DNA of 40,278 nucleotides. It comes from Vicinamibacteria bacterium. Its GTDB lineage: Bacteria > Acidobacteriota > Vicinamibacteria > Fen-336. This document shows positions 50-28,889 of the stretch, one piece after another; positions within the stretch are counted from its first letter, which is position 1; every line of letters begins with the position of its first letter. The notes beneath the pieces are model-generated. The model was not told where the DNA came from. It worked only from the letters and a program-made list of their open reading frames with translations, and searched no databases. The stretch is from the NCBI GenBank assembly GCA_023701125.1, contig JAMPXO010000036.1, forward strand, positions 1-40,278. Direction: 5' to 3'. The translations under genes and the position numbers were made by a program.

Positions 50-133
50 GGGGTGCGGGGGCGGAGCCGGGTCCGTTTGCGGCGTGAGCCCCCGCGGGAC
101 CGGGGCCGGGTTCATCCCGGCGCCGGAACCCGA
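50..133 (+). repeat. Dispersed two-hairpin element, copy E1
   Basis: This is an 84-bp copy of a repeat also found at 12286-12368 and 27303-27388. Hairpin 1 is closed by GGGGGC (57-62) and GCCCCC (88-93). Hairpin 2 has arms at 100-110 and 116-126 around a TTCAT loop, and the copy ends AACCCGA (127-133). This copy is intergenic, tandem to the copy at the left edge, and ends 7 bp before the putative -10 box of the zinc-ribbon gene. The other full copies lie inside coding sequence. Boundaries are set by where similarity between copies ends, so they are accurate to a few bases. Confidence 0.8.
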
Positions 134-12107: not shown

Positions 12108-13517
12108 CTACCGGGGGGCGGAGAGGCGGCGGGAGAGCGTGAACAGCGGCACGCCGGCGGCCATCACGGCCGCGCCCGCGAGTGCGACGCCGGGCTCGGT
12201 CCACAACACGCGCAGCGCGACCGCCAGCAGCACCAGCGTGAACAGACCCGGCAGCCACGGGTAGCCGGGCATGCGGAAACCGCCCGGGGGTTTGGGGGCG
12301 GAGGAGCTCCGTTCGCGACGTAGCCCCCATGGGACCGGTGGCGGGCTCTGCCCGACATCGGAACCCGACCTGCCCTCGCGGCGGCGCAGCACGAACAGCG
12401 TCGAGGCCACCGTCGCGATCGCCACCGCGTCCGAGAACATCACGTAATTGAGCAGCCGCGAGAACGAGCCCAGCAGCAGCGCGGGCCCCAGCATGGTGAG
12501 CGCGAAGAAGGCGAGCCCCGCCCGCTGCACCTCGGTGCCCGGGTCGACGCGCAGGAATACGGCCGGCAGCGCGCCGTCTTCGGCCATCGCGTAGTAGCTG
12601 CGGGGCACCTGCAGGATGGTGGCGTTCACGAAGCCGGCGGCGGAGAGGAAGATCGCGAGCGAAACGGCCGTCTCGCCCCACGGGCCCAGCGCGGCCTGCG
12701 CCAGGCTGGCCGCGACCAGCGGCGAGGCGGCGACGCCCGCGAGCCCGAGCGTGCGCTCGTAGGCGAAGTTGATGCCGACGTAGAGCGCGATCACGACCAG
12801 CATGCCGCCGGCGATGGCGCGCGGCAGGTTGCGCTCGGGCTGGCGGACGTCGCCGCCGAGGTTCATCGCTCCCTGGTAGCCGCCGCAGGTGTAGAAGACC
12901 GCCACCGCCGCCGAGGCGAAACCGCCGAAGGACGCGCCCGGCTCCGGGGTGTCGGTCGCGAGCGCCGGGGCGAGCAGGAAGGCCGCCGCGCCCAGTGCCA
13001 GGATCATCACGATCTTGCCGACCGAGAGCACGTTCTGGGTTCGCGCGCCGGTGCGGATGCCGAGCGCATTGGCGGCCAGCAGGGCCACCATCAGCGCCAT
13101 CGCCGACGCGAGCGTCGCGTTCCCCGTGCGGGCCTCCGCGGGCAGCAGCACCAGGTTCAGGTACTCGGCGCCGATGAAAGCGACGCCCGCGGCGCCCGCG
13201 CCCTGCAGCAGCGCTTGCGACCAGTTCAGCACGAACGCGAGCCGCGGGTGGTAGCAGTCGGCGACCACCCGGTAGTAGCCGCCCGCGCGCGGCAGCCGGG
13301 CCCCGATCTCGGCGAACGTGAACGCCCCGGCGAGGCTGACCAGGCCGCCCGCGATCCACACCGCGTGGAAGGCGAACACGGAGCCGGCTTCGGCCGCGAC
13401 CAGCGCCGGCGTGCGGAAGATGCCGATCCCGATCACCAGGCTGACGACCACCATCGCGGTGTCGAAGGCACCGAGCCGCGGCTGGATGGCCGTCGCCGCG
13501 GCGCGGGCCTCAGACAC
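12108..13517 (-). CDS. APC-family amino-acid permease with an in-frame repeat insertion
   Basis: A 469-residue membrane transporter of the amino acid-polyamine-organocation family. The first helix carries the expected VVSLVIGIGIFRTPALVA (25-42), and later helices follow the 12-helix pattern, including GGYQGAMNLGGDVRQPERNLPRAI (212-235), which is conserved in family members. Residues about 384-411 are abnormal: a Ser/Pro/Arg-rich stretch that interrupts the cytoplasmic loop between FVLRRR and FRMPGYPWLPGLF, which in homologs lie about 8 residues apart. This stretch is encoded by the repeat at 12286-12368, and the frame stays open. The GTG start at 13517 overlaps the aminotransferase stop by 8 bp, so the gene is third in an operon. 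Substrate is probably an amino acid. Confidence 0.88.
   Translation of the reverse strand: MSEARAAATAIQPRLGAFDTAMVVVSLVIGIGIFRTPALVAAEAGSVFAFHAVWIAGGLVSLAGAFTFAEIGARLPRAGGYYRVVADCYHPRLAFVLNWSQALLQGAGAAGVAFIGAEYLNLVLLPAEARTGNATLASAMALMVALLAANALGIRTGARTQNVLSVGKIVMILALGAAAFLLAPALATDTPEPGASFGGFASAAVAVFYTCGGYQGAMNLGGDVRQPERNLPRAIAGGMLVVIALYVGINFAYERTLGLAGVAASPLVAASLAQAALGPWGETAVSLAIFLSAAGFVNATILQVPRSYYAMAEDGALPAVFLRVDPGTEVQRAGLAFFALTMLGPALLLGSFSRLLNYVMFSDAVAIATVASTLFVLRRREGRSGSDVGQSPPPVPWGLRRERSSSAPKPPGGFRMPGYPWLPGLFTLVLLAVALRVLWTEPGVALAGAAVMAAGVPLFTLSRRLSAPR
12286..12368 (+). repeat. Dispersed two-hairpin element, copy E2, inside the APC permease gene
   Basis: An 83-bp copy. Hairpin 1 is closed by GGGGGC (12294-12299) and GCCCCC (12323-12328). 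Hairpin 2 has arms at 12335-12345 and 12351-12361 around a 5-nt loop, and the copy ends AACCCGA (12362-12368). It lies antisense to the host gene and encodes about residues 384-411. Reading on the coding strand begins TCG-GGT-TCC, a frame shifted by one base from that used by copy E3 in the cyclase gene. Confidence 0.8.
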
Positions 13518-26315: not shown

Positions 26316-28889
26316 TCACTTCGCGGTCATCACCCAGGCGCCGTTCCAGTCCTCGGGCGGCGGCTGCTGGCGGAAGTGGCCGCAGCGGCTGCGGTACAGG
26401 CGCGAGGCCACGTCGCCGGGGTCCACGGCCAGCGTCTCGTCGAAGGCCCGCAGCGCGGTGGTCCACTCGCGGGCGCGGTAGGCCGCGAGGCCGCGGGCGA
26501 AGGCCTCCAGCTTGCGCGGCGACCGCGCCGGGTGGTCGCGGTCGAGGTGGTCCAGCACCTCGAACACGGCCACCGGCTGGCTCTTGCCCTTGACCACGAT
26601 CCGGTCCAGCTCGCGCAGCGTGTACGGCTGGCGCAACTCCGCCGCGGTCATCTCGCTGATCAGGATCTGGCTGCCGTAGGTCTTGTTGGCGCTCTCCAGC
26701 CGCGAGGCCAGGTTCACGCCGTCGCCGATCACGGTGTAGTCCATGCGCTTCGGCGAGCCGATGTTGCCGGACACCACGTCGTCGCTGTTGACGCCGACGC
26801 CCATCAGCACCGGCGGCAGCCCCAGCGCCTCGCGCGCGCCGTTGAACTCGCCCATCGCGGACAGCATGCCGATCGCCGCCTGCACCGCGCGGTCGGCGTC
26901 GTCGGCCGCGCCGAACGGCACGCCGAACACGGCCATGATCGCGTCGCCGATGTACTTGTCGAGCAGCCCGCCGCGCTCCAGGATCACGTCCGCCATCAGC
27001 GAGAAGTAGTCGTTGAGCAGGGTCACCGTCTCGTGCGCGCCGAGCGCCTCGGCGATCGAGGTGAAGCCGCGGATGTCGGTGAACAGCACGGTCGCGTGCA
27101 GCACCTTGCCGCCCAGCGCGTCTTCACCCTCCTCCAGCAGCTTGTCGACGACCTCCTTGGTCATGTAGCGGGCCATCGTCGTCTTGAGCCGCTTCTCCTG
27201 GGTCAGGTCCTCGATCATCAGCATGCAGCCGGGGCCGGACTGGCGGGCGTCGGGCAGCGGCACGACGGACAGGTTGACCGACAGCGCGTCTTCGCCTTCG
27301 GCGGGGGTCTGGGGGCGGAGGAGGCCGGAGTCGTCCGACGGAGCCCCCAGGGGACCAGTGTCGGATTCACTCCGGCACTGGAACCCGATGAACCCGGACG
27401 CGGTCCGACGCCGCGGCACCCACAGGTCGACTGCCATCGCCACGGATGGCTCGCCGGTCCGCCGCACCTCCACGATCGCCTCCGCCACCCACGCGTTGGC
27501 GCCGGTGAAGAAGTCGCTCGCGGAGCGCCCGACCGCCTGCCCGCTGTCGTCGAGCCGGAGCAGGCGCAGCGCGGCGGCGTTGACCTTGACGATGCCGTCC
27601 GCGGCGCCCAGCGTGATGACGCCGTTCGACATGCTCTCCAGCACGCTCTCGTTGTACTGGCTGACCCGGGTCACCTCGTCGAACAGCCGCGCGTTCTCCA
27701 TCGCCACCGCCGCCTGGCTGGAGAAGGCCTTCAGCCGCCGCTCGTCGATGAAGGTGAACGGCCCGCCGCGCTTGTTCAGCACCTGGGTGACCGCGATCGC
27801 GCGGCCCTGGCGGTCGAACACCGGCATGCACAGGATGGTGTGGGTGCGGTAGCCGGTCTTGCGGTCGACCTCCGGGTTGAAGCGCGCGTCCGCGTAGGCG
27901 TCGGGGATGTTGATCGTCGCCCCGGTCCGGAACACGTGGCCGGCGATGCCGAGCGAGGCGGGGAAGCGGATCTCGGAGACGCGGTCGCCCTGGGTGGCCA
28001 GCGCCCACAGTTCGTCCGTGCGCGGGTCGTGGACGAACAGCGTGGCGCGGTCGGCCTCCAGGATCAGCGACACCGTTTCCATGATCTTCAGCAGCAGCGG
28101 CTGCAACTGCAGCTCGCTGCCCAGCGCGGCGGTCACCTCCAGCATCTGCCGCTCCTCGGAGCGGGTGCGGGCGACCTCCTCGTGCAGCATCGCGTTGACG
28201 AGCGCCGCGGCCGCCTGCGAGTTGAGCGTCTCCAGCAGGCTCATGTCGCCGGTGGTGAAGGTGCCCTGGCGCTTGTTGAGGACCTGGGCGACGCCCACCA
28301 CGGCCGACTGGCCGTCGCGCAGGTGGCGGATCGGCATGCACAGCAGGCTGCGGGTGCGGAAGCCGGTGCTGCGGTCGATCTCGGGGTTGAAGCGCGGGTC
28401 GGCGTAGACGTCGTCGATCTGCACCGGGCGGCCGCTGCGGAACACGCTGCCGGCGATGCCCTGGCCGGCGGGGAAGCGCACCTCGCCGAGGCCCACCGCG
28501 GCCTTGGCGTACAGCTCGTCGGTGCGGGCGTCGTACAGGAAGATCGAGCAGCGCTCGGCGTCGAGGAAGGACGCCATCAGCTCGACCATCCGCTCCAGCA
28601 ACTCGTCGACGGACAGGCTGTCCGAGAGCCGGCTGGTGATCACCAGCAGCGCGGAGGTCTTGCGCAGCAGCTCGCCCAGCTTCGTGGTGAAGGCGTCGCC
28701 CTGGGCGGCGTCGAGCTTGGCCAGGATGCGCTGGATGTCGCCGGGGTCCAGCGAACGGGTGATCAGCTCGGTGACGATGTCGAGCACTGCCACCGTCTCG
28801 ACCAGGGCGTGCTGGTAGTTCTCGGGCAGCCCGGGGGCGTCGGGGGGAAGCGGGCCAGGTCCGCCGGGACCGCCGCGATCCAGGCTCAT
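26316..28889 (-). CDS. Adenylate cyclase with GAF-GAF-PAS sensor region and an in-frame repeat insertion
   Basis: An 857-residue soluble class III cyclase. Two GAF domains (about 85-235 and 250-405) share AGQGIAGSVF/ASLGIAGHVF cores. A PAS-like domain (410-565) is interrupted at about residues 501-530 by a Gly/Ser/Pro-rich stretch encoded by the repeat at 27303-27388. The catalytic domain (595-780) has metal-binding Asp605 (FTDIRGF) and Asp649 (KYIGDAIMAVFG). The substrate-selecting pair is Lys645 and Thr719 (DYTVIGDGVNLASR), which fits ATP rather than GTP. A short TPR-like tail follows (790-835). It starts 4 bp after the second kinase gene, so cAMP production and Ser/Thr phosphorylation are probably linked. 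The GAF domains may sense small ligands. Confidence 0.92.
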   Translation of the reverse strand: MSLDRGGPGGPGPLPPDAPGLPENYQHALVETVAVLDIVTELITRSLDPGDIQRILAKLDAAQGDAFTTKLGELLRKTSALLVITSRLSDSLSVDELLERMVELMASFLDAERCSIFLYDARTDELYAKAAVGLGEVRFPAGQGIAGSVFRSGRPVQIDDVYADPRFNPEIDRSTGFRTRSLLCMPIRHLRDGQSAVVGVAQVLNKRQGTFTTGDMSLLETLNSQAAAALVNAMLHEEVARTRSEERQMLEVTAALGSELQLQPLLLKIMETVSLILEADRATLFVHDPRTDELWALATQGDRVSEIRFPASLGIAGHVFRTGATINIPDAYADARFNPEVDRKTGYRTHTILCMPVFDRQGRAIAVTQVLNKRGGPFTFIDERRLKAFSSQAAVAMENARLFDEVTRVSQYNESVLESMSNGVITLGAADGIVKVNAAALRLLRLDDSGQAVGRSASDFFTGANAWVAEAIVEVRRTGEPSVAMAVDLWVPRRRTASGFIGFQCRSESDTGPLGAPSDDSGLLRPQTPAEGEDALSVNLSVVPLPDARQSGPGCMLMIEDLTQEKRLKTTMARYMTKEVVDKLLEEGEDALGGKVLHATVLFTDIRGFTSIAEALGAHETVTLLNDYFSLMADVILERGGLLDKYIGDAIMAVFGVPFGAADDADRAVQAAIGMLSAMGEFNGAREALGLPPVLMGVGVNSDDVVSGNIGSPKRMDYTVIGDGVNLASRLESANKTYGSQILISEMTAAELRQPYTLRELDRIVVKGKSQPVAVFEVLDHLDRDHPARSPRKLEAFARGLAAYRAREWTTALRAFDETLAVDPGDVASRLYRSRCGHFRQQPPPEDWNGAWVMTAK
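27303..27388 (+). repeat. Dispersed two-hairpin element, copy E3, inside the adenylate cyclase gene
   Basis: An 86-bp copy. Hairpin 1 is closed by GGGGGC (27311-27316) and GCCCCC (27343-27348). Hairpin 2 has arms at 27355-27365 and 27371-27381 around TTCAC, and the copy ends AACCCGA (27382-27388). Compared with E1, two pairs of hairpin 2 have changed on both sides (G-C to A-T). It is antisense to the cyclase gene, encodes about residues 501-530, and is read in a different frame from copy E2. Confidence 0.82.

Follow-up and report, generated by a model that had tools for sequence, protein, structure and literature searches.

The window, which is the whole stretch of DNA analysed here, comprised one entire contig (C176, 40,278 bp) of a 254-contig assembly with a total length of 5.41 Mb. 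The genome to which it belongs (G000) is a third species of its genus beside the MAGs ACD1 and ACD2. The initial annotation had reported a two-hairpin repeat with full copies at 50-133, 12286-12368 and 27303-27388 and a partial copy at 1-46, and all four sequences were found as claimed. The limits of the inserted core were refined to GGGnnnGGGGGC...GGAACCC, and the 5 nt beside the cores (e.g. GACGG) look like a duplicated target. Since the partial copy is severed by the contig start, it was read as the remnant of a first tandem unit, with copy 1 as the second. The features of the window are as follows.

1-44, + strand: truncated copy, 3' hairpin only (model positions 39-84), 5' end missing at contig start
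51-131, + strand: copy 1 core, 81 nt, intergenic, with GATGG on the right flank (132-136)
55-95, + strand: copy 1 hairpin 1, GCGGGGGC ... GCCCCCGC, from folding and covariation
96-131, + strand: copy 1 hairpin 2, GGGACC-stem-loop-GGAACCC, from folding and covariation
12108-13517, - strand: copy 2 host gene, amino-acid permease (PF13520), 469 aa
12288-12366, + strand: copy 2 core, 79 nt, antisense within the amino-acid permease gene, open frame
12294-12299/12323-12328, + strand: copy 2 hairpin 1 arms; hairpin 2 at 12331-12366
26316-28889, - strand: copy 3 host gene, GAF-GAF-PAS-guanylate/adenylate cyclase (PF01590, PF00211), 857 aa
27305-27386, + strand: copy 3 core, 82 nt, antisense within the GAF-PAS-adenylate cyclase gene, open frame
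27311-27316/27343-27348, + strand: copy 3 hairpin 1 arms; hairpin 2 at 27351-27386

Two of the three full copies in the window lay in frame within genes, a feature that the initial annotation had missed, as it had the 5-bp target duplication and the interchangeable second hairpin. Copy 2 is predicted to insert an extra loop in the amino-acid permease and copy 3 likewise in the GAF-PAS-adenylate cyclase, and copy 3 was missing from the G001 ortholog of the latter gene. A mechanically called ORF at 84-551 begins at a GTG within copy 1; its true start is probably further downstream, at a GTG near 153, and the element borders are probably an annotation trap.

The three full copies showed RNA folding-energy z scores of -2.7 to -3.0 on the + strand. 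Inspection by eye of hairpin 2 gave the same paired changes as previously described, with arm position 3/9 being A-T in copy 3 alone, position 5/7 reading C-G, mismatch, T-A and T-A across copies 0 to 3, and position 11/1 being A-T in copy 3 alone. In 150 aligned copies, 92.2% of the pair cells were standard pairs. The covariation test showed 91 double-changed cells compared to 26 ± 4 expected, and 11 pairs with double changes compared to 6.0 in the shuffles; neither value was reached in any of 500 shuffles, which ignore the relatedness of the copies. Shifting the pairing partner by one to three columns abolished the covariation. Mispairs on the + strand were G-U in 81 cells and A-C in 18, an excess that was given no weight since it stems mostly from one inherited site.

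Many copies of hairpin 1 carried a second hairpin that was unrelated in sequence, e.g. GGGCCGAG...CTCGCCGCCC or GGAGCCC...GGGACTCC, and these alternative hairpins often retained the terminal stem and the 2-nt 3' bulge. Fifteen of them, chosen as they turned up, were folded; ten had a z score of about -2.5 or lower, and those of L199, L206 and L112b were unconvincing, being no better than shuffles. Because the second hairpin is swapped for unrelated ones of the same architecture, shape appears to be conserved more than sequence. The fold-keeping unrelated hairpins support structural conservation independently of the relatedness-blind shuffles and, together with the covariation, uphold the earlier claim that the paired changes indicate selection on, or spread through, a folded form. 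Copies consisting of the 3' part only also exist but are few. In addition, a long form was observed at L190, L193, L201, L202 and L204 (about 970-1150 in element orientation), where a hairpin of more than 100 nt (arms GGGGGCGGAG.../...CTCCGCCC around GGCTCGCGCCGGGAGTGAATCCCGGCGCTCGGGCC) takes the place of hairpin 1 and is followed by the usual second hairpin. The centre of the long form occurs 14 times in the genome.

The initial annotation had called for a genome-wide search with a covariance model, and such a model, built from 27 copies, recovered many more: at least 150 matches dispersed in the host genome, with a best E value of 1.4e-14. The pattern of the 3' part had 94 exact matches genome-wide compared to none in the reversed control, and the 5' hairpin motif GGGnnnGGGGGCGGAG had 251 in G000 compared to 3. 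Matches to the 5' motif in the three congeners numbered 251 (G000), 43 (G001) and 67 (G002), while the rest of the 149 related genomes were near their reversed controls. Covariance-model matches were confined to the three congeners among 60 genomes. An exact-pattern scan of GTDB genomes showed that, beyond G000, the element matched only in ACD1 and ACD2, whose records are MAGs labelled as Acidobacteria and Vicinamibacteria isolates, and in one contig taken as misbinned. The repeat family is restricted to one genus of Acidobacteriota, and some copies at different loci share 98-100% identity. A scan of plasmids and phages for the element produced no match. The matches on a viral contig (L046) and at L032 and L034 were rejected as they contained the pattern only and lacked the element. 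The 'Armatimonadetes' contig (L039, JACPDV010000187, 3464-3547) was also rejected as a case of horizontal transfer, as it shares 90% identity with locus L015 of G000 and probably is a congener's contig that was misbinned. It carries an element in the same region as L015 but in the opposite orientation, possibly an independent insertion into the same gap. An Rfam search produced no match at the gathering threshold in the window and none at E ≤ 1 in one array.

The core length was 76-84 nt, with 79 or 80 nt being the commonest and 81-82 nt less frequent. Insertion was lineage-specific; in 26 comparisons with the congeners, at about 82% DNA identity, the orthologous site was empty and no insertion was shared. 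Nine rows flagged as shared were excluded because their array flanks or projected overlaps of approximately 90 nt or more were matches to other copies, which was judged by gap values and not individually. Junctions were read by ungapped anchoring because gapped alignments of the empty sites blurred them. The cleanest junction (L067) showed GTCGG-core-GTCGG where the empty site has GTCGG just once, a net +84. For 83 insertions, the left and right flanks correlated at offset 5 only and identical flanking pentamers were found in 14 compared to 6.6 expected (p = 0.001). A perfect 5-bp duplication was present at one junction only, and many left pentamers differed from the right ones, owing to decay or to another mechanism. 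As several other empty sites yielded overlaps of 2, 4 or 8 nt, the length of the duplication is drawn from the statistics and the one perfect case. GACGG, GATGG and GTCGG were the commonest target pentamers, and a preference for a target of about GAYGG/GTCGG with a 5-bp duplication is supported. In several tandem arrays one odd pentamer (TATGG, GACAA, GGCTG or AGTGG) recurred between successive units, as would be expected if the spacer was copied along with the unit.

Genes were called by a simple caller that used a home-made codon model derived from the sequence of congeners, and a few of the intragenic calls were near gene ends. The codon model was seeded on codon-position GC; training on the longest ORFs was dropped because of contamination with antisense ORFs (GC3 of only 0.78). 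Out of 116 classifiable arrays, 45 (approximately 39%) were within predicted genes, 26 of them antisense and 19 sense. Orientation showed no bias with gene strand. The other 71 were intergenic; convergent genes flanked 24 of them and divergent genes 10, and a stop codon was typically present within 30 bp. Independently of the caller, 48 arrays were flanked on both sides by sequence coding on the same strand; 32 of them kept the frame, and 30 of these 32 had no in-frame stop. A length filter was also found: core length modulo three was 1, so that core + 5 is divisible by three, in 32 of 40 intragenic compared to 35 of 89 other cases (p = 2e-5), and the frame neutrality of core + 5 also fits a 5-bp duplication. 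Insertion frames were 12:1:4 in the sense orientation, compared to 10.4:0.6:6.0 predicted by the codon phases that GACGG and GTCGG occupy in genes, and 3:20:2 in the antisense orientation, compared to 4.6:19.3:1.1 expected on the same basis. The frame of the peptide is set by the codon position of the target pentamer, so selection for a particular peptide is not needed. Tandem pairs within predicted genes were observed at L051 (1076-1242), L122 (880-1046) and L119 (2501-2667). The pairs of L119 and L122 were in frame (period 84, i.e. 28 codons), and the pair of L051 was shifted and ended near the 3' end of the gene. Such pairs may represent in-frame copy-number variation.

Overall, the repeats are probably small, non-autonomous mobile folded elements that were moved in trans and then filtered by selection. 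The mobile unit would be the 76-84-nt core, folded into a pair of neighbouring hairpins, GGGnnnGGGGGC...GCCCCC and GGG-stem-loop-CCC. A putative trans-acting enzyme would insert it in either orientation at pentamers resembling GAYGG/GTCGG and duplicate 5 bp. The folded strand seems to matter more for recognition than the sequence does, given that unrelated hairpins of much the same shape stand in for hairpin 2, and recognition may take place on a single strand. Tandem arrays, whose units repeat every 84-87 bp or so, would arise later by unequal exchange, slippage or repeated insertion. Selection would then purge the harmful copies and leave intergenic survivors that mostly adjoin gene ends, together with intragenic survivors that are mostly stop-free, with core + 5 divisible by three, and that may contribute about 28 extra residues to the translated protein. 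It is also conceivable, at rather long odds, that two consecutive hairpins of exchangeable sequence define a structure-recognised transposition with 5-bp duplication at GAYGG/GTCGG that works without a Y1 transposase or a reverse transcriptase, and so a new class of folded-strand integration.

Searches for a mobilising enzyme showed no Y1_Tnp (PF01797) in G000, G001 and G002, whereas the same search was positive in five control genomes. RVT_1 was not found in G000 or G002 and had one broken match in G001 (L187-L189, G001:C12:262115-262766), which was matched in three pieces, one of them with two internal TGA codons, and is likely a broken gene. DDE_Tnp_1 (PF01609) was not found in the three congeners and the TnpB search also produced no match. 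The rve search matched a single fragment in G000, located at the end of a contig, and a single gene in G002, and neither locus carried a repeat copy by covariance model. The G000 fragment (L211, G000:C192:6-266) is the sole rve-domain integrase fragment in the host genome, is cut by the contig end and is a candidate multicopy IS. The absence of an enzyme is weak evidence since MAGs often lose multicopy genes.

The 5-bp duplication, the target preference and the complementary ends (GGGYTT/GGAACCC) would also be accounted for by a classical MITE, derived by deletion from a DDE insertion sequence and bounded by short inverted ends (GGGTT/AACCC). This reading is a tentative one, as the inverted ends extend over only some 5 bp and show no covariation, with GGGTGC 5' ends retaining AACCC, and no parent was found among the rve, DDE_Tnp_1, Y1, TnpB and RT searches, although a parent could belong to another enzyme family. 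An element of the REP/REPIN type, mobilised in single-stranded hairpin form by a RAYT or an IS200/IS605 (Y1) transposase, would share the hairpin fold conserved with compensatory changes, the 2-nt 3' bulge that several types have close to the base of hairpin 2, the high copy number and the positions adjoining gene ends, and REPs also occur inside ORFs (PMC3733652). It is nevertheless unlikely, in view of the missing Y1_Tnp in G000-G002 (with the same reservation about MAGs) and of an orientation that was unrelated to GC skew (p = 0.13). A 5-bp target duplication, as shown by the present element, is not expected from Y1 transposition. The constant GTAG tag was likewise absent, with the 3' side of hairpin 1 reading either GTAG or GGAG: T in 46 and G in 17 intergenic cases (n = 63), and T in 17 and G in 19 intragenic cases (n = 39).

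Retro-element-like spread, in which RNA hairpins would be reverse-transcribed and inserted, is consistent with the conserved folded strand, the 3'-only copies and the G-U over A-C excess, mostly from one inherited site, but the 3'-only copies are few and the lack of RVT_1 in G000 and G002, with only the broken match in G001, makes it very improbable. Strong hairpins close to gene 3' ends and the favoured convergent intergenic regions could instead point to a host-serving RNA element under selection (terminator, attenuator or mRNA stabiliser), with the copies in genes being incidental. This is improbable as well: none of the copies read had a T-run behind the hairpin, both orientations were found, about 39% of the sites were within genes and no orthologous copy was shared in the 26 congener comparisons. 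The orientations, the intragenic share and the unshared sites are what insertion tolerance predicts. Splicing of the intragenic copies, or their bypass by ribosomes as in mitochondrial byp elements, would leave them untranslated and would suit a two-hairpin fold tolerated within conserved genes, yet a skipped insert needs neither a length modulo three nor an open frame, and both are constrained here; this explanation is hardly credible. Small mobile folded elements moved in trans and filtered by selection were retained as the preferred reading.

Compared to known systems, the element resembles MITEs in having a target-site duplication, of 5 bp as judged from the statistics and one perfect junction. 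BOX elements of Streptococcus pneumoniae have a modular composition. By description, the likeness to BOX elements (PMC3049150), which are dispersed with tandem internal modules, is in modularity only; here the modules are swapped for structurally equivalent hairpins and copies occur in frame within genes. GTAG REPs and CGTC REPs are short high-copy hairpins, some of them intragenic and the CGTC type without a dedicated transposase (PMC3733652). REPs are, however, single hairpins of 20-40 bp with a fixed tetranucleotide (PMC3733652), whereas the unit described here measures approximately 80 nt, has its two hairpins in a set order and lacks a constant tag. Correia/NEMIS elements of Neisseria have two length forms, an ORF-compatible one of 107 bp in genes and another that is intergenic (PMC2229807), to which the 79/82-nt and 80-nt cores can be likened by description, but Correia elements have 24-bp terminal inverted repeats (PMC2229807).

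The closest behaviour is that of the RPEs, dispersed palindromic repeats located in frame in unrelated conserved genes and between genes (PMC2229807, PMC10969869, PMC3767692). The present element is also palindromic and in frame in many unrelated protein genes, with 45 of 116 arrays intragenic and frame-neutral length enriched. RPEs span 100-150 bp, carry 12-bp terminal inverted repeats and have an unknown target duplication (PMC2229807). In contrast, the element has a core of 76-84 nt in most copies, terminal complementarity of approximately 5 bp and a 5-bp duplication at GAYGG/GTCGG; it is G+C-rich, consists of two hairpins of which the second is exchangeable, and belongs to another phylum. 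The best reading is a new family with RPE-like behaviour, convergent with the Rickettsia RPEs and set apart from them by description.

The frame-phase prediction and the interchangeable hairpins are what the present family adds, the latter describing a small mobile unit that exchanges its second hairpin while its architecture persists. As no enzyme was found for the family, the mobilising enzyme is a concrete search target. Rickettsia is the best-known source of repeats lying in frame within genes, and opinion there is divided on whether such insertions are favoured by selection or tolerated; the Acidobacteriota case is an independent test of this question. Since the codon phase of the target predicts the frames and the length filter covers the rest, insertion preference and purifying selection suffice and a benefit from the peptide is unneeded.
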